From the IMG/VR virus record IMGVR_UViG_3300025913_000044, positions 1 to 54,693 of that record: a stretch of DNA of 54,693 bases; one strand, 5' to 3'. Position numbers and translations under genes: made by a program. A model generated the notes under the pieces. It was not told where the DNA came from and did no database searches. It saw nothing but the letters and a program-made list of their open reading frames with translations. Below, in pieces: positions 5,623-52,700 of this stretch; the stretch's first letter is position 1; each line of letters opens with the position of its first letter. This DNA is from a virus.

Positions 5623-5663
5623 GCCGCCCATTCGGGGTCACTCCCGGGTGGGCGGCACTTTTT
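5623..5663 (+). terminator. Rho-independent terminator
   Basis: GCCGCCCA pairs perfectly with TGGGCGGC, an inner TCGGG pairs with CCCGG, and the hairpin is followed by ACTTTTT. It lies 50 bases past the preceding stop and ends the transcript that begins in the ubiquitin-like cassette, or attenuates it into the replication genes. Confidence 0.85.
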
Positions 5664-5901: not shown

Positions 5902-6125
5902 ACAGAAAAACTAAAACCTGCCCCAAGTGCCACGGCACCGGTCAAGTGACCGATGACATCTGGCTGGGGCTACACATGCGCGGCCTGCGCCGCCAAGCCG
6001 GGCACAGCCTGCGCGTCTTGGCCAAACGGATGGGCTACTCCGCCCCCTACATCAGCGACCTGGAATTGGGTCGCCGTCATTGGACACCTGAACTCATCAA
6101 GGTCTACAGCTACGCACTCAAATGA
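5898..6125 (+). CDS. Zinc-knuckle plus XRE-type helix-turn-helix regulator
   Basis: A 75-residue protein with CPKCHGTG (a DnaJ-like half zinc site) at residues 8-15, followed by an XRE-type HTH: LRRQAGHSLRVLAKRMGYSA then PYISDLELGRRHWTPELI. The recognition helix is near residues 48-58. XRE proteins repress or activate promoters by binding inverted repeats. It is coupled to genes on both sides by ATGA overlaps and lies just after a terminator, which suits a local regulator. Confidence 0.8.
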   Translation: MNRKTKTCPKCHGTGQVTDDIWLGLHMRGLRRQAGHSLRVLAKRMGYSAPYISDLELGRRHWTPELIKVYSYALK

Positions 6126-6343
6126 AACACATCACTCGCGCCAAGGGCGGCACCAAAGAACGCCGCGTCTTGGTTTCCAAAATCCAAATCCCGGACTTGT
6201 GGAACGTCGTCCACGGCTGGGACAACATCGAGGCCCGGGACCGGGAACTCATCCTGGAAACCTGGCACCTCGCTCACGATCTGCTGCGCGCAGTCAGGGA
6301 GGCTGGAGAAATGGAATCAGAAACACTTCGGTCAATGCGGTAA
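6122..6343 (+). CDS. Small hypothetical protein
   Basis: A 73-residue protein starting at an ATGA overlap with the XRE-type gene. It has a basic N-terminus and an acidic helical C-terminal half (ARDRELILETWHLAHDLLRA). No motif is recognised. It may partner the HTH protein or the downstream ATPase. Confidence 0.6.
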   Translation: MKHITRAKGGTKERRVLVSKIQIPDLWNVVHGWDNIEARDRELILETWHLAHDLLRAVREAGEMESETLRSMR

Positions 6344-6356
6344 AAACCAAACACCA

Positions 6357-6611
6357 ATGCCGCACACTGACTTCTCTCCCAGCTACACAGTCACCTTCAA
6401 CGCGAGCGAGTTTCGCATTGTCGGACTGGCGTTGGCAGGCAGGCTCAAGGACCGCGAGGACATTGAGGCTGCGCTCAGACTCAACTTCCAAATCCTGGGA
6501 CAAAGAGTGTCCCACCTGGACGTTTATATGCAGCAATCCAAGAAGGCGCTCGAAAACGCCGACCGGGCGCTGCTCGACATCAACCAAAACACAGAAAAAC
6601 ATGGCACTTAA
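6357..6611 (+). CDS. Small hypothetical helical protein
   Basis: An 84-residue protein; after a short strand (YTVTFNASEFRIVGLAL) it is helical with heptad-like spacing. Its 3-prime end overlaps the start of the ATPase gene, so it may act with it. Unrecognised. Confidence 0.6.
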   Translation: MPHTDFSPSYTVTFNASEFRIVGLALAGRLKDREDIEAALRLNFQILGQRVSHLDVYMQQSKKALENADRALLDINQNTEKHGT

Positions 6612-8055
6612 AAAACTCGGTGGAGGTCAAGGCCTCCTGAAAGCTGGCTTCCTGGGATTCCAGGGCTCCGGCAAAACCTACACCGCGGTCCTCTTGGCCG
6701 CCGCGATCCGAAAGCAGTTCGGACTCAAGGGCCCCATTGCCCTCATCGACAGTGAAAACGCCACCGCGTATGTGGCTCCACTGGCACAAGAACTCACCGG
6801 CCTGGAGCTGGTAGGGGACCGCACCCGGGACTTCGACCAACTGGTCTCCCTGGGCCAAGACTGCGTGAAGGAAGGAGTCAGCGTGCTGGTGGCAGACAGC
6901 ATGACTCACTTCTGGCGCAACCTCTGCGACTGCTACCTGGCAGGCATCAACGAAAACAACGCCCGCAGGCAACGGCCACCGCGCTCGCGGCTGGAGTTCG
7001 CTGACTGGGGCCCGCTCAAAACTCAGTGGGCTAAATGGACGGACTTTTACCTGAACAGTCCGCTGCACATCATCATCTGCGGTCGTGCCGGTTACGAGTA
7101 TGACATGACCAAGAACGAGGAGACCGGGCGCAATGAGCTCAACAAGACCGGTATCAAAATGAAAACCGAAGGCGAGTTTGGCTTTGAGCCCTCACTCCTG
7201 GTCCAGATGGAAGTCGAGCAGGAGCCCGTCCGCGACGGGGGATTCCGCCAGATCCGCACCGCCACCATCCTCAAGGACAGGTTCGGCGTCATCGACGGTT
7301 CGGTGTTCCAGTTCCGCAAGGGCAAGGACCACGCCGAAGAAATGCAGGCGGTGTTCAATGCGTTTGGTCCTCACCTGACCATGCTCAAGCCCGGGGTTCA
7401 CTCCCAGGTCGCCACCGCCGTCAACGCCATGCCGGTCTCCGAGGAAGGCGACATCGAATGGTCCCGCGAGCGCAAGGCCAGGACCATCCTCTGCGAGGAA
7501 ATCCAGGGGGCCATCATCGAGCGTTACCCCGGCCAATCGGCCGAGGAGAAGAAAGCCAAAGCGGGAGTCCTGGCGCAGTACTTCGGCACCCGTTCCTGGA
7601 CGGCCGTCGAGTCCATGAACTCCACCCAACTCCGGGACGGGCTCTTCCTGCTCAAACAGGGGTTGGGCATCGACCCTCAACCACCGGCAAAAATTGCCGA
7701 TCCTAAAGACGACCTGGACATGGGTAAAAGCCCCCAGGAGGCGTCGAAGGCTCCAGAGTCCCCCAAGACAGGGCCCGAGGCCTCAAACCCCGGGAAAACC
7801 GCTAATCCTAAGCAGGAACCAGCCTCTAAAGAGGACATCACACCCCTCAAAATGGTCCGGTTCCTCCTGGAGAGCACCAAGCCGACGGTTACCGAGGCTC
7901 AAATCCTGGCCACCATGCACAGCGTTGGCAGCCTGGACGACCCCAAGGCAACCCTGGAGGAGCTGAGTTTGGCCGCGCCATTCGTGGTCACGCTGCTCAT
8001 GGAGCAGTTCAAGTCCTTCCACAATGCGGCCTGTGAGCTGCACAAAATCAAATGA
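6601..8055 (+). CDS. AAA/RecA-like ATPase, Sak4-type recombination protein candidate
   Basis: A 484-residue protein; the ATG before ALKKLGGGQGLLKAGFLGF is preferred because the upstream open frame is a shadow of other genes. Walker A is GFQGSGKT (residues 19-26), and Walker B is VLVADS with M-T-H following (near residues 93-100). The short N-terminus, a P-loop near residue 20 and a LIDSE strand match phage P-loop proteins of the Sak4/AAA_24 group, which assist single-strand annealing or replication. The C-terminal 130 residues are Pro/Lys/Glu-rich and probably a flexible tail or partner-binding region. It heads the replication/recombination block (helicase, primase-like, resolvase). Confidence 0.85.
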   Translation: MALKKLGGGQGLLKAGFLGFQGSGKTYTAVLLAAAIRKQFGLKGPIALIDSENATAYVAPLAQELTGLELVGDRTRDFDQLVSLGQDCVKEGVSVLVADSMTHFWRNLCDCYLAGINENNARRQRPPRSRLEFADWGPLKTQWAKWTDFYLNSPLHIIICGRAGYEYDMTKNEETGRNELNKTGIKMKTEGEFGFEPSLLVQMEVEQEPVRDGGFRQIRTATILKDRFGVIDGSVFQFRKGKDHAEEMQAVFNAFGPHLTMLKPGVHSQVATAVNAMPVSEEGDIEWSRERKARTILCEEIQGAIIERYPGQSAEEKKAKAGVLAQYFGTRSWTAVESMNSTQLRDGLFLLKQGLGIDPQPPAKIADPKDDLDMGKSPQEASKAPESPKTGPEASNPGKTANPKQEPASKEDITPLKMVRFLLESTKPTVTEAQILATMHSVGSLDDPKATLEELSLAAPFVVTLLMEQFKSFHNAACELHKIK

Positions 8056-8132
8056 CCGGCACCATCATCGGGCTGCTCATTGTTGTGGCCGTTATTGGCC
8101 TGATTATCTACGCCTGCCGAAGGGGTAGTTGA
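8052..8132 (+). CDS. Single-pass membrane micropeptide
   Basis: A 26-residue peptide: MTG, then a hydrophobic stretch (TIIGLLIVVAVIGLIIYA), then CRRGS. Its ATG overlaps the ATPase stop (ATGA), so coupled translation is plausible. It has one membrane helix with positive charges after it. It could be a small holin-like or regulatory membrane peptide. Confidence is limited by the size. Confidence 0.5.
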   Translation: MTGTIIGLLIVVAVIGLIIYACRRGS

Positions 8133-8137
8133 CACCT

Positions 8138-8253
8138 GTTTGCGTTCTGGCACAATCGCGTTGTGCACCAGGACGCAAACACCTTTGCCCTGTCTCCGGT
8201 TCCTGAATTTCAGCCCTTCTTGGCTGAGTCTGGTGCACACCCGGAGGCAGGGC
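8138..8253 (+). ncRNA. Structured leader RNA with competing pairings
   Basis: Stem 1 pairs 8138-8150 with 8168-8180 (13 positions, one T-G wobble) and contains an inner CACAA/TTGTG stem. Stem 2 pairs 8187-8199 with 8241-8253 (13 positions, one wobble) and encloses TCAGCC/GGCTGA (8210-8215 with 8222-8227). In addition, GTGCACCAG (8163-8171) can pair with CTGGTGCAC (8230-8238), which would break stem 1. It lies between the micropeptide and the gene at 8272. The mutually exclusive pairings suggest a switch or attenuator; it may also act as a terminator since TTTTC follows stem 2. Confidence 0.6.
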
Positions 8254-8271
8254 GTTTTCGTCTCGGAACCT

Positions 8272-8946
8272 ATGACTACCATCGCCCGCAGCTTCACCCC
8301 GGAGGAAACCAAGCGTTACGCTAAGAACAAACTCATCGTCAACACCTACAACCAGAGCGTCAAACTCTGGACCGAGGCGCTCTACGAAATCCGGGTCAAG
8401 CAGGACTACCTGCAAGACCACATGACCTGGGAGAAATGGTGCGAAATCAACATCCCCTGGCGTCCGGTTAAGTCCATCGACCGAATGCTCCGCACCGAGG
8501 CCACCAAGCTGGCCGAGAAAGTGGCCACCACCGAAGTGGAAGCCACCACCGAACCCGCCCCCGAAGGGGACCTGCGCGACGACACCGGATTTATCGTGCC
8601 TGAACACCTGCATGACATTTGGAAACGCCGCAAGGAACTCAACACCCTCAAGAACGAAATCAGCGGCCTGCGCCGGGTCATCGAGAAAGGCTGGGAAGCC
8701 ATGGACCCCCTGGCCATGAAGTTAGACCAGAGCATCGTCGATGACCTGAAAGCAGCCTATCACTGTGTCGCCAAGGCCCAGCTCTATTGCGTGTGCGGCA
8801 CCTGCAACGGCTGGTTTTCCCGGGTCAGTGACGGGGTCTGTCAATCCTGTAACAGCACCGGTTTTATGAGCAAAGAACAACACGACCGCCTCCTGCCCGA
8901 ACAGGTCAAAGCCATTCGGGAGCGGGCGGCCAAACTTCAAAAATGA
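8272..8946 (+). CDS. Hypothetical protein with C-terminal zinc ribbon
   Basis: A 224-residue protein; the ATG before TTIARSFTPEETKRY is chosen with GGAA six bases upstream and after the structured leader. Residues 15-80 are helical and include TWEKWCEINIPWRPVKSIDR, a pattern common in small phage proteins near replication genes. A coiled-coil-like region follows, then a zinc ribbon near residues 168-196 (CVCGTC...CQSC). The stop overlaps the helicase start. It is likely a nucleic-acid-binding accessory factor; the exact family is unknown. Confidence 0.75.
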   Translation: MTTIARSFTPEETKRYAKNKLIVNTYNQSVKLWTEALYEIRVKQDYLQDHMTWEKWCEINIPWRPVKSIDRMLRTEATKLAEKVATTEVEATTEPAPEGDLRDDTGFIVPEHLHDIWKRRKELNTLKNEISGLRRVIEKGWEAMDPLAMKLDQSIVDDLKAAYHCVAKAQLYCVCGTCNGWFSRVSDGVCQSCNSTGFMSKEQHDRLLPEQVKAIRERAAKLQK

Positions 8947-10601
8947 GCCTACGCGATTACCAATCCCGCTGCGTCGACGCCATCTTCAGCGAATGGCAAA
9001 AGCACCTGGGCACTCTTGTGCTCGCTGCTACAGGTTCGGGCAAGACGGTCATCTTCGCTGAGGTGATACGCCGGATGCAACCGGCCCGAACCTTGGTCCT
9101 GGCTGAGCGCCGGGAAATCATCTTCCAAGCCCGGGACAAGATTGAGCAATGGGCCCAGTTGCCCTGCGAAATCGAGATGGCCCACATGAGCGCCAACACC
9201 AGTCTCTTCCACCGCACCCCGGTCGTGATTGCCACCATCCAAACCCTGCGCTCGGGCAAGGACATCAAGCGGCTGCACCGGTTCAACCCGGATGACTTCG
9301 GGCTGGTCGTCATCGACGAGTGCCACCACAGCGCCGCAGAGAGCTACACCAAGGTCATCGAATACTTCAGGCGCAACCCCAAGATTCGGGTGCTGGGAGT
9401 AACCGCCACCGGCGACCGCGCCGACGGTCAGAAGCTGGGCCACATCTTTGGCTCCACGGCTTTCAAGTATGACATTCTCGATGCCGTAGGTGAGGGCTGG
9501 CTGGTCGATGTGACGCAGCAGTTTTGCCGGGTCACCTCCCTGGACTTCTCCCACATCAAGACCATCGCCGGGGACCTGGCGCAGAACGAACTGGCCGCCG
9601 TCATGGAGGCTGAGAAGAATATCCAGGGCGTATGCCAGCCCTCGTTAGAGGTCATGTTCGGGCTTGAACCCCGGACCTTGTCCCAGGTGGAGCCGGTAAA
9701 GTGGGGCGAATTCCTCTCCAGCAAAGTCTCCGTCGAACGCGGCATCCCGCGCCGCTCCATCATGTTCACCGCTTCGGTGGCTCAAGCCGAAATGTGCTGC
9801 AACATTTTCAACCGCGTCATACCCAACATCGCCGAGTGGGTCTGCGGAAAGACCGACCCCGAAGAGCGCAAGTCCATGCTCCAGCGGTTCCGCAAAGGTC
9901 ACACCGCCATCGTAATGAACTGCGGGGTACTGACCGAAGGGTTCGACGACCCGGGAGTGCACATCATCTTCATGGCTCGGCCCACCAAGAGCCGCTCCCT
10001 TTACACGCAGATGGTGGGGCGCAGCACCCGGCCCCTGCCCGGACTGGTCGACGGACTGGCCAGCGTGGAGGAACGACTGCGCGCCATTGCCGGTAGCCCC
10101 AAGCCCTTTTGCCGCATCGTGGATTACGTGGGCAACAGCGGCCGACACAAGCTGGTCACCGCCCTGGACATTCTCTCCGGTGGACGCAAAGAGACCGTCA
10201 TCACCCGGACCATGGCTGACGCGCTCAAGACCGGCGTTCCCTTCCGGGTCTGCCGCAAACTCAACGCCACCGAAGCCGACATGGTCAAGGAAGCCAAGGC
10301 CGCGGCGCTCAAGCGCCAGCAGAACGAGGAGGCGCGCCGGGTCAAACTCTACGCCCGGAGCGACTACACGCAGCGCGCGGTCGATGCCTTCGGCCACGGC
10401 GGCACCGGCCCGGCGCAACACTGGCTGCCGCGCATGGGCAAACCCCTGTCGGAGGGGATGCGCAAGGTCCTGCTCAAGCGGGGCTATAACCCGGATCGAT
10501 TTTCCTTCCAACAAGCTCGGGCCATCATCGGTAAGATTGCCGAGAAGGAAGGATGGAACAAAAAACAAGAACCACTGAAAGGGACAAATGAGCAAGTATG
10601 A
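8943..10601 (+). CDS. SF2 DEAD/DEAH-family helicase
   Basis: A 552-residue protein with helicase motifs in order: Q-like LRDYQ (residue 3), Walker A AATGSGKT (about 28-35), DECHH (motif II, near 128-132), VTATGDR (motif III, SAT-like), then in the second RecA domain IVMNCGVLTEGFDDPGV (motif V) and QMVGRSTRP (motif VI with the arginine finger). This is the UvrB/type-III-restriction-like group that phages use for DNA or R-loop remodelling during replication. The C-terminal 150 residues are basic. ATGA overlap with the preceding gene; the downstream gene begins inside its 3-prime end. Confidence 0.92.
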   Translation: MSLRDYQSRCVDAIFSEWQKHLGTLVLAATGSGKTVIFAEVIRRMQPARTLVLAERREIIFQARDKIEQWAQLPCEIEMAHMSANTSLFHRTPVVIATIQTLRSGKDIKRLHRFNPDDFGLVVIDECHHSAAESYTKVIEYFRRNPKIRVLGVTATGDRADGQKLGHIFGSTAFKYDILDAVGEGWLVDVTQQFCRVTSLDFSHIKTIAGDLAQNELAAVMEAEKNIQGVCQPSLEVMFGLEPRTLSQVEPVKWGEFLSSKVSVERGIPRRSIMFTASVAQAEMCCNIFNRVIPNIAEWVCGKTDPEERKSMLQRFRKGHTAIVMNCGVLTEGFDDPGVHIIFMARPTKSRSLYTQMVGRSTRPLPGLVDGLASVEERLRAIAGSPKPFCRIVDYVGNSGRHKLVTALDILSGGRKETVITRTMADALKTGVPFRVCRKLNATEADMVKEAKAAALKRQQNEEARRVKLYARSDYTQRAVDAFGHGGTGPAQHWLPRMGKPLSEGMRKVLLKRGYNPDRFSFQQARAIIGKIAEKEGWNKKQEPLKGTNEQV

Positions 10602-11094
10602 ACGAACTGTGTTTGGTCGGCGCAAGATGGAGTTTGAGGGCCGTGACTTCACCATCGAGATGCGCAAGGATGGAATCTACGTGCGGCGCAAGCGCGGCCG
10701 GTATGAATGGCGGATGTCCTTCACCACGCTTCTAAACCATGCAAAACTACAGCCCGAGCTCTTCTACACGCTGGATCAGAGTGACCCGAGCGAATCGCTG
10801 CCCGGTGTGCAAGAAGGACAGTTGGTGCGTGGTGACGCAGGACGGGTCAGCGACCATCTGCATGAGGGTGGAAAGCCAGAAACCCAAGCTCCTCAAGTCG
10901 GGGGAAACGGGGTGGATTCACCGGCTGGGGGAACCGCAGGACCGGCTAACCCTGCCCTCCCCCAAGCCAGCCCCAGCCCCGAGCATCAACTGCACGGAAC
11001 TACTATCCAGGTGGCGAGCACGGACCAACCGGCAATGGACCCAGGCCCTGACCGAGCAGCTCGGGTTGAGTCTATCCAGCCTGTCGCGTCTTGA
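10588..11094 (+). CDS. Hypothetical protein overlapping the primase-like gene
   Basis: The start is marked by GAAAGGGACAAATG. The first 55-60 residues (basic, strand-rich, ending near LQPELFYTL) look like a real small protein. Beyond that the frame overlaps the TOPRIM gene by more than 350 bases, and its composition (Gly/Pro/Gln/Ala) looks like a shadow translation. Either the protein really has this long overlap, or there is a frameshift near 10740-10790 joining it to the next gene. The functional part is uncertain. Confidence 0.5.
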   Translation: MSKYERTVFGRRKMEFEGRDFTIEMRKDGIYVRRKRGRYEWRMSFTTLLNHAKLQPELFYTLDQSDPSESLPGVQEGQLVRGDAGRVSDHLHEGGKPETQAPQVGGNGVDSPAGGTAGPANPALPQASPSPEHQLHGTTIQVASTDQPAMDPGPDRAARVESIQPVAS

Positions 11095-11587
11095 AATTGC
11101 CTATGCGGAGGAACACCGGGCATGGGCTTTCCCTATGAAGGATGGCTATGACAACGTCGTGGGCATCCGGCTGCGCAACACCAAGGGGGACAAGTGGGCT
11201 GTGCGCGGTTCGCACCAGGGCTGCTTCCTGCCTGCCACCGAATTGGTCCCGCCCCTGGCGTTGGTGGCCGAGGGTCCGACGGACACGGCGGCCGGATTGG
11301 ACCTGGGCTATTACACGGTGGGTCGACCCTCCTGCTCAGGCGGCATGAACGACCTGCGCACCTGCTTTGCTCGCCAGCACGTTCGCCGCGCGGCCATCAT
11401 CGCAGACAACGACAACCCCGGAACGCGGGGTGCACAAATGCTGGCCAACCACCTGGGAGTGCCAAGCTGCATCGTCACGCTGCCCTGCAAAGACCTGCGC
11501 CAGTTCCTGCAACTGGGCGGGACTCGGGAGTTGCTGGACGGGTTCATCAATGCTTCACTGTGGAACCAACCGGATGCTGACCGATGA
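10739..11587 (+). CDS. TOPRIM-domain primase-like protein
   Basis: A 282-residue protein with a zinc-binding start (CPVCKKDSWC at residues 21-30, then a CMRV Cys) followed by a linker and a core with LALVAEGPTDTAAGLDLGY (residues 175-193) and AAIIADNDNPGTRGAQ. The EGPTD...ADNDNPG pattern is the TOPRIM Glu plus Asp-x-Asp set of primases and topoisomerases. It is shorter than DnaG-type primases and lacks a clear catalytic N-terminal domain, so it may work with the SF2 helicase. The start ATG has no good ribosome-binding site and lies within the upstream gene, consistent with coupling or a frameshift fusion. Confidence 0.8.
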   Translation: MQNYSPSSSTRWIRVTRANRCPVCKKDSWCVVTQDGSATICMRVESQKPKLLKSGETGWIHRLGEPQDRLTLPSPKPAPAPSINCTELLSRWRARTNRQWTQALTEQLGLSLSSLSRLEIAYAEEHRAWAFPMKDGYDNVVGIRLRNTKGDKWAVRGSHQGCFLPATELVPPLALVAEGPTDTAAGLDLGYYTVGRPSCSGGMNDLRTCFARQHVRRAAIIADNDNPGTRGAQMLANHLGVPSCIVTLPCKDLRQFLQLGGTRELLDGFINASLWNQPDADR

Positions 11588-15000: not shown

Positions 15001-18000
15001 GATCTGGGAAGGAGTCGGCTCGGTCTGGTGTGCGGTCCGGGGCAACGGAAATCGAGTTACCGGCTCGCGGATTTTTTCGGGCGCGGTGAGCTCCCGGCTG
15101 ACGCCCTTGCTTGCCTTAGCTTCGAGAACTTGGGCAATGGTAGGCTGTCCAGTTGGGCGAGCTGGTCGGGTAAATCGCCCCAGTGTTGCGGCGATGAAGT
15201 CCGAGGCTTTGCTGGCCTGGAAGTTTTGGGCCGCATCCCAGAGCGCATCGAGAGCGGAGGCTGCGGACTTGGCCGGGGTTGGCTCATACTTTTCATAAAG
15301 GTGTTCCAGATACCGCTGCCGATCTTCCTTGGGCACATCCTTGAGGGAGGCCCGCTCCTCCTGGAGCATTTGCTTGAACTCAATCTTGTCGCGCCGGTAT
15401 TGCTCGGCGGCCGCCTTGCGCAGCGCCGACACGGCGTTCCACTGGCGGGGCTTGAGCCGGTCGGTCCTGGCCAACTCAATCAACTGCGAGACGGCCTCGG
15501 CCATTTCCTGGCGATTGGTCATCTTGAAATCGTCGGTCACATGGACCTTGGTGCTCTCCCACTGTTGGGGGTCCAGGAGCCAATCGGTCAGGGCCATCAC
15601 CTCAGCGCCGGAGAGTGGCGCGTTCTTGCGCAGTTGCCCGGCCCGGGTCTTGAACTGGCCCGCAGCCGGTCCCATGAAGCTACCGCCTTCACCTTCCATC
15701 ACGCGGGTGCCGGGGCGGAACGAGGTCTCTTCCTCAGGCGCTTCCTTACCCTCGTAGCCGCGCTGCATCTGCTGGTCCAGAGCCATCGGGCCTTCGGTGC
15801 CAGTCTCGACATCGTGCTGGCGAGGGGCTTCCTCGTAGGCCTGGGCAATCCACTCAGGCACATCGTCCCAGGTCTTGCCTTCGTTGGCGGCAGTCAGTTC
15901 AAAGCCCGGGTCCACCGCCGAACGGGCGGCGTCTTTGCCCAGGTAACGGTTAAACTCCTCGATGTTGCGGAAGTTCTTTCGGAACCCGAACGTGGGCTCG
16001 CTGCGCAGGGGCGAGATGATGGGCTCCCAGGTGTGCCAGATGCTGGAGAGCCGCACGTAGGGCTTGCCCTTCACACCAGTGCCACCAGCCGGTTCCACCA
16101 CGTTGATGTCGCTGCGGCCATGGGGATAGGCCGAGACCAGGGCAATCTCATCGGTGTTCTTGTTCTTCAACACCAGCAGGCGGCGGCTGTGGGAGACCGG
16201 GTCGAAGTTGAAGCGCCGGGCCTCATCCGAAACGATGGCGCGCATCTTGTCGATGTTGCGCCGTTCATCCGGCCGGATGGTGCGCCACACACCTTCCTTG
16301 GTGTTGGGATTGGACCAGGCCAGGTCATCCACATTCACATCGCTGGGTGTGAGCTCAAAGGCCGGTCGGTCCGGGTCGATGACCAACTTCTGGTAGATGG
16401 CACTCAGGGCTTTGTCCCGCAGCTTGCGCCCCTTCATGATGCGCTCGCGCGCGCCGATGATGGCGTCGCGGTCCTCGGGCTTCATGCCCTTCAACCACTC
16501 GCGGCGCTTTTGCTCCAGCGTCTTTTCCACGGCCGCAGTCCACTCCTCATCAGTTTTGAACTGGTCGCGCGGAATGGATTCCTTGATGCGGATGGCGGCC
16601 AGGAGCGGCAGGTCGCGCGGGTCAGGCGGCGGGGCGGTCTCATCGGGAATCTCCACCCGGGTATAAACCGTGCCTTCAGCCTTGGGGGCTCCGGGCTTCT
16701 GCGGGATGGGCGTGAGGGTCTTGGTCGAGACGCGCTTGAAGGGGTAGACCTTGTGCTCCAGGCCCAGGGATTCAACCAGCTCATTGAGCTTGGCTCCGGG
16801 AGCCGTCAGCACATCGGCGGCGACCACATCGGCCCAGATTTGAAGTGCACCCTTACTGGTTACACTTGGACCCACGTTGCGCTTGAGCCAATCGTGGAAG
16901 GTTTTGAAATCCTTCTCCTGGCCCGGGTCACTGTAAATCTTTTGCGCCACTCCGTAGAGCTGTTCCGGCGTGAGTTTCTGGCCGGTGATATCCGGGGCTC
17001 CGCGCTCCTCTTTTGGAACCGGCTTGAAATCGGGCTGGTCGCTGGCCTTGAGCGGTGTGCCCTTGAAGAAGTCCTCCTGGTTGGGGTCCTTCTTGCCGCG
17101 CCGCATCGCAGCCGGTGGCTCATCCCCGGTGTAGGGCACACCCGCCTTGGCCGCCATCGCTCGACGCCAGGCATTAGTCAGGTTGGACCTGGCCTCGCGG
17201 TTCTCGCTGGCGTTTTTGACGTACTGAGTATCGAGAAACTTCATGTGGGCCTTGGCGGCCTTGAGCATCTCGATGGACTCCTCCTCCTCAGTCAGGGGCT
17301 TGCGCCGGGCGGCGGCAGGAGCGTCGGATTCAGGCGGGGGCATCCCACCATACTTGTTCTTGAGAGTCTCCCATTCCTGCATGAGCGGCAGGGGCGGCCA
17401 CTCGCGCTTGGCGTTGTAGCCCTTCACTTCCGCCAGGATATCCTCGTAGCGTTTGCGGTCCGCCTTGCGCTCCTCGGAACTGCGCTGCATGGCGGCAGGC
17501 TGGTCCTGCTTGCCAATCACACTCTTGGCATACTCGATGTTCTTGGTGGCCTTCTCAAAGAGCGACCGCTGGTTGAGGCTCGCTTCGGTGCCGAAGGTTT
17601 CCCGGGTCTTGCGCAGCATCTTGCCGATGAAGTCCAGGGCCTTGAGCGTGACCCGCTCCCGGCCCACAGTCTCGGCAAACTCACTGACTGTCATTCCGTA
17701 AGCCTGCTGCAAGCGCCGACGGATGGCCTCATGCGCGCTCATCTCGGGCGTCACATCCGGGTGACCAAACCGGTCTCCCATGTAGATGTGGTTTTCGAGC
17801 TGCTTCTCCCAACCGGTCAGGCTGTCCCAGTACTGACGCAGCTCCTCTTTGGAGAGGCGCTTCATCACCTCGTTGTGGAACCGCTCCTCACCCACACGTG
17901 AGCGCACCGCCTCAGAAATCTGTTCCTTGCTCAGGCCTTTGCCCAACAGGTCCATGACCCAGGAACGGAAGTTGCCCGAGTGCAGGTCGGCACCGGAGCC

Positions 18001-31419: not shown

Positions 31420-32375
31420 GAGAGCAACTGGGTCAGGAGGTAGTTCTGCACGGCCAACTGCATCCCGGGAGGAATGGTGCAGGCAAAGCAGTTGGCGCTA
31501 TTGACCAGGGCTTGCACTCCCGCCGCGCTGGTGTCCACGCCCGCGATGACGGCCAGGAGATAGGTCTGCACCGCCAGTTGGTCCCCAGGCGGAATCGTGC
31601 AGGCAAAGCAGTTGGCGGTGTTGGCCAAAACAGAAGGGTCAGTGGAAGGAAGAGCCATAGGATTCAGGGCTGCAACAGGACGGTGTCCAGGTAGAACTTG
31701 TAGCTGATTTTAGGCAGGCACTTTCCCAGCAAACTCCCGACCTGGACGCCGGAAGCCAGGCCAAAATCAGCAATCGGAATTACCACGTTCTGGTAGGACT
31801 TGTTCGTGGTGTCAAAGCCGTAGCTTTCCACCGAGAGCTCGTTGCCGGTAGGCGTTCCCCCCGAGTCTTGCCACCGGAACGTCAGGTCACTCGTTGCCCC
31901 AAAACCAACGTCCACCGGGTTAAGCCACAGCGAAAGCTGGGTGTAGTTCGACAAAGTGACCAGGGCGGGGGCGGTCAGCGTGAAGGTGTCCCCGTTGCTC
32001 ACCAATGTGCCCTGCATGTTGAGCAGCCCGGTGTGGGGGTTGGACGCGCTGTTGCCGATGATGTGGGTCGGGGCGCTGGTCGAGAAGGTCCACTCTACGT
32101 CCTCGTCAAAGACGGTGATCGCCACAATCGGAGCGTTGGCCGTCAACTGAACGAGCAGATAGTTTTGCACCGCCAACTGCATCCCGGGTGGGATCACACA
32201 GTCGAAACAGGTGGCGAGATTAACTAAGGCCTGTGCTCCGGCCGCGCTGGTGTCCATGCCGCCAATCAACGCCAGCAAATAGGTCTGCACCGCCAACTGG
32301 TCTCCTGGTGGAATAGCGCAGGAGAAACAGGTCGCGGCGTTGGCCAGGGCGGACGGGTCGGTGGTGGGCAGCGCC
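31300..32375 (-). repeat. Five copies of a CFxC / PPGxQ module across three genes
   Basis: Each module of about 35-40 residues follows DPSxLANxAxCFxCxIPPGxQLAVQxYLL. Two copies lie in the 237-residue protein, two in the 80-residue protein and one diverged copy at the start of the 421-residue protein. Adjacent placement and high identity point to recent tandem duplication. Confidence 0.8.
31416..31658 (-). CDS. Small protein made of two CFxC modules
   Basis: An 80-residue protein that is essentially two tandem copies of one module: CFACTIPPGDQLAVQTYLL and CFACTIPPGMQLAVQNYLL, joined by AVIAGVDTSAAGVQALVNSA. Its stop is coupled by ATGA to the fiber-like gene. Cys pairs (CFAC) could form disulphides or bind metal. 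It is probably an adaptor or N-terminal attachment piece shared with the neighbouring proteins. Confidence 0.75.
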   Translation of the reverse strand: MALPSTDPSVLANTANCFACTIPPGDQLAVQTYLLAVIAGVDTSAAGVQALVNSANCFACTIPPGMQLAVQNYLLTQLLS

Positions 32376-43709: not shown

Positions 43710-44226
43710 AACGCCAGAGCCGGGGAACCGGCACAGTGTATTTGATGCCGCTCTGAATCACACCCCGGGCTACATCGTTGTAGGGCACATCGAAGTCGTG
43801 ACCGACCATGACGCCGCCCGGCTTGAGCAGCGGCTGGAGACAGCGAATATCGCGCATCACATCTTCCTCGGCGTGGCCGTCATCGACAAAGATGAGGTCC
43901 ACTTTGCCGCGCATGTGCGAGAGCATTTGTGCGCCGCGCTCCGAGTCGCCGGTGATGATTTCCAACTGGCCGCGCTCAATCCACCAGGTCAGGTTGCGCC
44001 GGGTAACAAACTCGGTGCCTGCCACCGGGAACTTGTCGATGCACCACATATGCGCGGTGGGCTTGGCGGCGCTCATCATGGCAAAGGCACTGGCCCCCAT
44101 GTAGGTGCCCGACTCCACGATGATGTCGGACTTGCGCGCCAGGGAGGCGAGGTATTCCAGGGTTTGGGTTTCGGTCCAGGTGAACACCCGGCATTGAACC
44201 AGGCGGGCGATTTCTTGGTCAGTCAT
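43696..44226 (-). CDS. Class I SAM methyltransferase
   Basis: A 176-residue protein with IIVESGTYMGASAFAM (SAM-binding glycine loop), WCIDKFPV, VDLIFVDDGHAEEDV (Asp acid motif) and LKPGGVMVGHDF, all in the order of Methyltransf_24-type enzymes often linked to glycan or peptide modification. It overlaps the GT2-like gene by eight bases and the FkbM-like gene by fourteen. Confidence 0.85.
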   Translation of the reverse strand: MTDQEIARLVQCRVFTWTETQTLEYLASLARKSDIIVESGTYMGASAFAMMSAAKPTAHMWCIDKFPVAGTEFVTRRNLTWWIERGQLEIITGDSERGAQMLSHMRGKVDLIFVDDGHAEEDVMRDIRCLQPLLKPGGVMVGHDFDVPYNDVARGVIQSGIKYTVPVPRLWRYDQV

Positions 44227-44980
44227 GGTAGTTGTGGTCTTTGAGCCACTGTTGAATGGCCGAAGGGTGGCGGCCTTCGTAGGGCACCAGATGGTTTTCC
44301 CAGCCGGTGACTCCTTCCATCGTCATCCAGTTGCCCGCAAAGGTCTCGGCTTTCTGGAGTCTGGGGTCATAGTCATTGACCCAAATGCGTTGCACTTCCC
44401 GGGCCTTGAGGAAGAACTGTTCGCGGTGGCGCAGGAATCCGTAATGGAACACCCGGATGGCGCTTTGCACAGCCTGAGCCATCGTCGCGGCGGCCGGTTC
44501 CCAGGGGTAATCGCTGGGCAAGGGCATGTTGGCCGGAGCCATCCGCAGCACCTTGGTCCCGCAGCAATGGCCGTCGGGAATCAGGTTGCGATGGTCCTTC
44601 CAGAAGTTGAGCCGGTGAAAGAACAGGGTGGCTTTGGCATCCCGGCCGTTGCGCACCAGCTCGTAGTCCTCCTCATGCAACACCTCGTCGGCGTCCAACT
44701 GGATGTGCATGTCGGTGGAGAGGTGCTGCCGGGAATAGTTGAGCCAGGTGGGCCACCAATCGGAGCTGCCGCGCGGGTCGGTCCAGGGATAGTTGACGAC
44801 CACGATCTTGGGCTCCTGCGACGCCCATCGGTCGATGAATTCGCGCGTGCTGTCCTGGCTGTCGCAGTCGCAGATGACCACCTGGTCGCAGACGGGCAGT
44901 AAAGATTTCACGGCCTCGCGCCAACAGTAGTCGAGTCGAAAGCCGTTTCGGATGCAGACGTTGCCGCCAAGAGTGGTCAT
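44219..44980 (-). CDS. GT2-family glycosyltransferase
   Basis: A 253-residue protein with a GT2 core: CDQVVICDCDSQDSTREFID (nucleotide-sugar loop) and MHIQLDADEVLHEED (the D-x-D metal motif), plus a C-terminal acceptor part. It transfers sugars from NDP donors. ATGA coupling to the next gene places it in the glycan cluster. Confidence 0.85.
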   Translation of the reverse strand: MTTLGGNVCIRNGFRLDYCWREAVKSLLPVCDQVVICDCDSQDSTREFIDRWASQEPKIVVVNYPWTDPRGSSDWWPTWLNYSRQHLSTDMHIQLDADEVLHEEDYELVRNGRDAKATLFFHRLNFWKDHRNLIPDGHCCGTKVLRMAPANMPLPSDYPWEPAAATMAQAVQSAIRVFHYGFLRHREQFFLKAREVQRIWVNDYDPRLQKAETFAGNWMTMEGVTGWENHLVPYEGRHPSAIQQWLKDHNYHD

Positions 44981-52468: not shown

Positions 52469-52638
52469 CACAGAAAGACTGGGAGCATTACTTCAAGCAG
52501 ATGGCGGCGGCCCTGCTTGGCACCGCCCCGGAAACCGTCATCATTCAATACCTCGATGACTCGGGCCGCATCATCAGCGCCAGCACTGAGGTGCGGGTCA
52601 GCCCCGACCACGACGGGCACATCAGCCTCGCGGAGTGA
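52465..52638 (+). CDS. Small hypothetical protein
   Basis: A 57-residue protein (start MTQKDWEHYFKQMAAALLG) with an amphipathic helix followed by strand-like VSPDHDGHISLAE. ATGA overlap supports coupled translation with the membrane protein. Confidence 0.55.
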   Translation: MTQKDWEHYFKQMAAALLGTAPETVIIQYLDDSGRIISASTEVRVSPDHDGHISLAE

Positions 52639-52669: not shown

Positions 52670-52700
52670 ATAACCCTGCGGATCGTCTCCGCGGGGTTAT
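52670..52700 (+). promoter_or_regulatory. Leader hairpin, copy 2
   Basis: ATAACCCTGCGG pairs with CCGCGGGGTTAT (12 pairs, one T-G wobble) about 22 bases before the 52723 gene. It shares CGCGGGGTTATAC and ATAACC with copy 1 at 37530. No T-run follows. Confidence 0.6.

Follow-up and report, generated by a model that had tools for sequence, protein, structure and literature searches.

The zinc-ribbon/helicase/primase operon of this virus is preceded by an RNA leader that very probably folds into a pseudoknot at the 5' end of its transcript. The pseudoknot consists of two helices, S1 and S2, and an inner hairpin, P3. Its shape is kept by relatives while nearly all of its letters change, which argues strongly for a real RNA structure. 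We propose, at about even confidence, that the element is a cis-acting 5'-terminal leader RNA working as a transcription attenuator of this operon. The element lies in the window (the whole stretch of DNA analysed, a 54.7 kb virus record in which few genes are recognisable outside replication), with an AAA/RecA-like ATPase gene (5953-8055) on one side and a rightward gene run on the other (Table 1).

Direct reading of the letters found all three pairings described in an earlier, sequence-only reading. Stem 1 joins GTTTGCGTTCTGG (8138-8150) to CCAGGACGCAAAC (8168-8180) by 12 Watson-Crick pairs and one G-U pair. The alternative pairing joins GTGCACCAG (8163-8171) to CTGGTGCAC (8230-8238) with 9 of 9 pairs formed, and a second stem joins GCCCTGTCTCCGG (8187-8199) to CCGGAGGCAGGGC (8241-8253) with one G-U wobble (U8193-G8247). 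Because 8168-8171 are common to both, Stem 1 and the alternative pairing do exclude each other, as had been claimed. The 150-nt leader region folded at -66.9 kcal/mol (z -5.8), none of 200 shuffles folded equally well, and the fold was better on the plus than on the minus strand. The pseudoknot of the alternative pairing and the second stem scored -56.1, the best value in the whole window on both strands. We are therefore highly confident of a regrouping of these pairings, with the alternative pairing in S1 and the second stem in S2. In a nested fold of 8163-8240, S1 was the main helix, and the S1 hairpin did not use the full S2 arms. Nested folding cannot model both helices, and geometric reasoning indicates that S1 and S2 can coexist as a coaxial pseudoknot. 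A supposed second copy at 52592 in the window was ruled out as an ordinary local terminator hairpin.

Table 1. Features of the leader, its operon and a terminator-type hairpin elsewhere in the window (window coordinates).
Feature	Position	Strand	Remark
Promoter-like site, TTGACA-16-CACAAT with TG extension	8129-8156	+	TTGACA at 8129, CACAAT at 8151-8156
Stem 1, long imperfect dyad	8138-8180	+	Spans promoter spacer, -10 and start site
S1 5' arm, UGUGCACCAGG	8162-8172	+	5'-terminal in the predicted transcript
Possible leaderless upstream ORF, GUG, 53 codons	8163-8324	+	Traverses the pseudoknot and overruns the main start; weak in this genome, stronger in L231, L268 and L252
S2 5' arm, UGCCCUGUCUCCGG	8186-8199	+	
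P3 hairpin, UUCAGCC-CUUCUU-GGCUGAG	8209-8228	+	Within the S2 loop
S1 3' arm, UCUGGUGCACA	8229-8239	+	Ends one nucleotide before the S2 3' arm
S2 3' arm, CCGGAGGCAGGGCG	8241-8254	+	
U-run after S2	8255-8258	+	As in intrinsic terminators
First gene, protein with zinc-ribbon C-terminal domain (CxxC...CxxC)	8272-8946	+	ATG 17 nt after S2
DEAD/ResIII helicase gene	8943-10601	+	Used as query for relatives
Primase-like gene, further down the same run	10739-11587	+	PHROG 239, E 1.3e-5
Terminator-type hairpin, AACCCTGCGGA/TCCGCGGGGTT	52672-52700		Between genes; initially taken for a second leader copy

The promoter-like site was the sole sigma70-like site between 5000 and 12500, scored by E. coli rules. 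It is weak evidence alone, since about 1.5 such sites are expected in shuffles. TTGACG or TTGACA also stands at the matching place in the related loci L010 and L031. Transcription is predicted to start at about 8162-8164. RNA begun there would lack the left arm of Stem 1, because this stem straddles the promoter. Stem 1 could form only in read-through RNA from upstream, which would hide the S1 arm, or it may instead be a DNA dyad for a regulator. A counterpart was sought in the other members, and nothing was found but a weak 7 bp dyad in L010. Pattern matches to Stem 1 in L003 and L004 were dismissed as unrelated coding DNA. The relatives keep the alternative pairing and the second stem and not Stem 1, so that the earlier view of Stem 1 as one state of a conserved switch was not borne out.

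Protein scans with the zinc-ribbon protein, the helicase or the ATPase alone found no close relatives. One relative, L005, was reached via a structural protein, and alignments then opened the family. Its contig (G001) carries the same genes as the window, with a helicase 58% identical. L010, the matching place there (minus strand, 9129-9020), holds the same S1, S2 and P3. Between the window and L010, both sides had changed in 9 of 32 pairs, and 98.3% of the pair cells were standard pairs; sliding the partners by 1-3 columns left 0-1 and 30-43%, respectively. The alignment was plain MAFFT and not structure-fitted; two sequences are too few for fine statistics, and the slid controls were clear. 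Within P3, three of the seven pairs were changed on both sides, and the S2 G-U lies at the identical place in both sequences. The wobbles and compensatory changes bear out the earlier suggestion of selection for RNA structure. Another case, L031, on a contig in a Pyrinomonadaceae bin, has a helicase 49% identical. TTGACA, S1, S2 and P3 are all present there, ahead of a ParB-like/zinc-ribbon gene, and the stem letters are wholly different from those of the window.

About 75 distinct phage loci were gathered through helicase alignments and searched with a topology score, in which S1 crosses S2 and the S1 3' arm lies a few nucleotides ahead of the S2 3' arm. Five of the nine best pseudoknots in 2.26 Mb fell in the matching leaders. 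At a score of -50 or better, the upstream regions gave 13 matches, the reverse strand 3 and shuffled sequence 0. The combination of promoter, pseudoknot and ATG at -44 or better occurred 13 times in 817 kb and never in shuffles, and the same scoring found no case in lambda, T7, Mu and D3. When S1 was tested given unbiased S2 candidates, the excess was modest (6/36 below p 0.05; reverse strand, 1/72). Curated inspection of further relatives brought the number of likely examples to 29, with unrelated stem sequences, each copy having its own. Pieces of twelve further contigs revealed several copies per genome in some relatives. The genes that follow these copies differ, and HNH and HNH-AP2 endonucleases (named by eye) are among them. 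Many of the roughly 75 loci had no recognisable element within 4 kb upstream. The element is therefore frequent but not universal, or else the score sets too high a bar. No excess over shuffles was seen in cultured phages whose HNH genes are related (Tunturiibacter Tunturi_1, Pseudanabaena Pam5, Microcystis MaeS). A stricter kissing-loop descriptor was dropped because of too many chance matches, and candidate small hairpins were noted around the S1 arm in several relatives.

Some individual loci deserve mention. The helicases of L082 and L083 are 82% identical while their leader stems have no visible sequence similarity, which may reflect very fast change of the leader RNA, or swapping. In L252, two divergent promoters lie back to back, at 17528 (minus) and 17613 (plus), each with a pseudoknot leader. 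In L077 (2354-2562) a leader pseudoknot is followed at once by a tRNA-like gene of 97 nt, which the Rfam tRNA model matched and ARAGORN missed.

The members share one order of parts: promoter, S1 5' arm, linker, S2 5' arm, P3 or a similar loop, S1 3' arm, S2 3' arm, U-run and start codon. The gap between the two 3' arms is usually 0-4 nt (0 in 7 of 14 members of the set scored with promoter and ATG), and the start codon mostly lies 6-30 nt further on. The S1 and S2 lengths appear to sum to a near-constant 25-27 bp or so in compact members, and S2 reaches 22-26 bp in some members. The linker between S1 and S2 also pairs with the loop in L083, L082, L081, L080 and L031, as judged by eye. Of the 29 curated members, 21 had at least four U among the 6 nt directly after S2, and none had as many at +13 to +18; the figure is somewhat inflated because a U criterion had served to find part of the set. 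In a set picked independently of that criterion, the U fraction was 0.28-0.40 at the first seven positions, compared with 0.06-0.22 in matches with no gene start close by. The S2 arms of L231 and L268 have the form AAAG...CUUUU, the classical terminator pattern.

The element has the mark of intrinsic-terminator attenuators, a GC-rich stem with an immediate U-run ahead of the first gene. By established intrinsic-terminator rules, a stem and U-run before the first gene of an operon, in a leader begun at a promoter, are best read as an attenuator. RNA polymerase would start at about 8163, and the first 11 nt or so, the S1 5' arm, would later pair with 8229-8239, while 8186-8199 would pair with 8241-8254. 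The predicted outcome is two abutting helices forming a coaxial pseudoknot, with P3 in the loop. S2 with its immediate U-run has the form of an intrinsic terminator just ahead of the first start codon. If S2 formed, polymerases would stop after about 96 nt; if not, the zinc-ribbon/helicase/primase mRNA would be made. S1 would be completed before the S2 3' arm is made, with the S2 5' arm held in the S1 loop. Since that loop is closed and RNA polymerase grips the 3' side, the helices would wind together most easily via the free 5' end. As S1 uses this free end, a ribosome, a protein or the speed of folding acting there could shift the balance. Sequence comparison shows the structure, its conservation and place, the U-run and the promoter-like position; the termination and what would relieve it we infer. 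Against an attenuator stand the four members without a clear U-run (L031, L187, L210 and L171), the many loci without the element, and the size of the S2 loop, which at 41 nt (structured) here and up to about 90 nt in relatives appears large for a terminator.

The position of S1 may be read differently. Its 5' arm starts at the predicted +1 or within about 7 nt of it in members with a scored promoter, which would suit a role in burying the mRNA 5' end at the junction of the stacked helices, blocking 5'-end-dependent decay (of the RppH/RNase E or RNase J type), with the U-run secondary. A kept shape with free sequence, in several copies per genome ahead of unrelated genes, fits such protection as well. 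However, it leaves unexplained the U-run directly after S2 and the terminator-like A-rich/U-rich arms of L231 and L268, and we consider it rather unlikely.

A decidedly unlikely explanation is that a ribosome entering at a leaderless AUG or GUG at +1 translates across S1 and S2, keeps the terminator from forming and ends next to the main start codon, giving translational coupling. ATG or GTG is in excess at -6 to +1 of S1 over neighbouring offsets. ORFs of 34-37 codons in L231 and in two L268 copies end beside the main start, with UGAUG and AUGA overlaps in L268, and the L252 ORF, in the same length range, ends a few nucleotides ahead of it. The L231 and L268 peptides are alike, but this may merely reflect DNA homology. 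Roughly half of the 29 members lack an ORF of this type, that of the window runs past the main start, and the pattern was noticed post hoc, after inspection of the data. Joined to attenuation, the same ribosome leads to a tentative and fairly unlikely generalisation: sequence-free 5'-terminal coaxial pseudoknot terminators would serve one phage lineage as a general signal on many of its transcripts, the ribosome at +1 choosing between the terminated RNA and the full mRNA and so coupling replication genes to translation at the 5' end of the RNA.

It is improbable that the knot or the long S2 helix is an operator RNA, bound by RNase III or by a phage protein that regulates its own operon, such as the zinc-ribbon protein. 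The zinc-ribbon gene adjoins the element in the window, L010 and L031, and the longest S2 helices noted above would also agree with this, but elements also precede unrelated genes, including HNH endonucleases, and the loops showed no conserved sequence that a specific protein might recognise. The earlier proposal of a metabolite riboswitch, alternating between Stem 1 and the alternative pairing, is very improbable. Although the two pairings are incompatible, Stem 1 is cut by the promoter and not conserved, and no unpaired ligand-core motif was shared among the 29 leaders (by eye only). The Rfam 15 covariance models gave no match to the element at the gathering score in the window and 18 related loci; searched alone with E up to 5, the leader gave only two chance matches far below the cut-off. 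The helix order resembles that of HDV, but a self-cleaving ribozyme was set aside in view of the missing Rfam match and the lack of HDV-type short linkers. The earlier proposal of an RNA leader ahead of the zinc-ribbon/helicase genes passes the refuting check set for it, since relatives do keep one of its pairings, and attenuation is the reading we prefer for it.

Several known systems resemble an attenuator of this kind. The P4 CI and P1 C4 immunity RNAs pair in trans and stop transcription into phage replication genes. The present leader is likewise a small RNA predicted to halt transcription into such genes, but it pairs with itself, in cis, and its sequence differs from copy to copy. In bacteriophage T4, the pseudoknot of the gene 32 mRNA leader is the binding site of gp32, which regulates its own operon through it; it serves a single gene and has no terminator. 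Both are leader pseudoknots of phage mRNAs ahead of a replication gene, whereas the stems here are far longer, end in a U-run and precede several genes. No adjacent gene for a T4 gene 32-type ssDNA-binding protein was found; the genes after the elements were zinc-ribbon, DUF1376-like, SWIM-like (by eye) and HNH. PMC535899 concerns the T4 leader pseudoknot. In the Gifsy-1 prophage, read-through of the terminator of the small RNA IsrK, from a prophage promoter, yields an mRNA (PMC4825925). This promoter-terminator arrangement is similar, but the genes differ, and the abstract describes no pseudoknot family of the present plan (PMC4825925). Intrinsic-terminator attenuators and riboswitch expression platforms also place a stem and U-run in the leader just upstream of the first gene. 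In contrast to them, the terminator stem here is one helix of a 5'-terminal pseudoknot, with no ligand core or conserved bases, and the copies differ almost completely in sequence.

Phage leader RNAs, attenuators and leader pseudoknots are known kinds; the sequence-free, multi-copy 5'-terminal form is apparently undescribed. Nothing similar was found in searches of the open-access literature, which leaves out most subscription journals. Catalogues of structured leader RNAs from phages of uncultivated hosts are poor, since models built on sequence miss folds whose letters have almost wholly changed; the present element was detected through topology, promoter and start codon. If it terminates as predicted, it would be a compact control on phage replication genes, with a fold that uses the RNA's own 5' end.

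In the gene setting, an in-frame TTG extension at 8140 was ruled out as coding, as the L010 frame upstream of the start closes within 12 nt; the open frame of the L010 first gene has 281 codons, compared with 277 for the gene. A strong hairpin of 15 pairs followed by TTTTT at 5623-5656 is likely an intrinsic terminator in the upstream gene block. On the late-gene side, 77-nt direct repeats occur four times in two pairs (31431-32346; spacing 120, 599 and 120). Glycosyltransferase 9 and glycosyltransferase 2 domains are fused in one phage protein (45189-46916, minus strand), near a weak second GT2-like gene (44219-44980), and a protein encoded at 581-1282 has a ThiF-like (E1/adenylating) domain. 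In proteins encoded close to the helicase gene, the C-terminal zinc ribbon follows differing N-terminal parts: ParB-like in L031 (3093-4004) and others, and unrelated in the window and L010. The first genes of L246 and L268 are also among these zinc-ribbon proteins with varied N-terminal parts.
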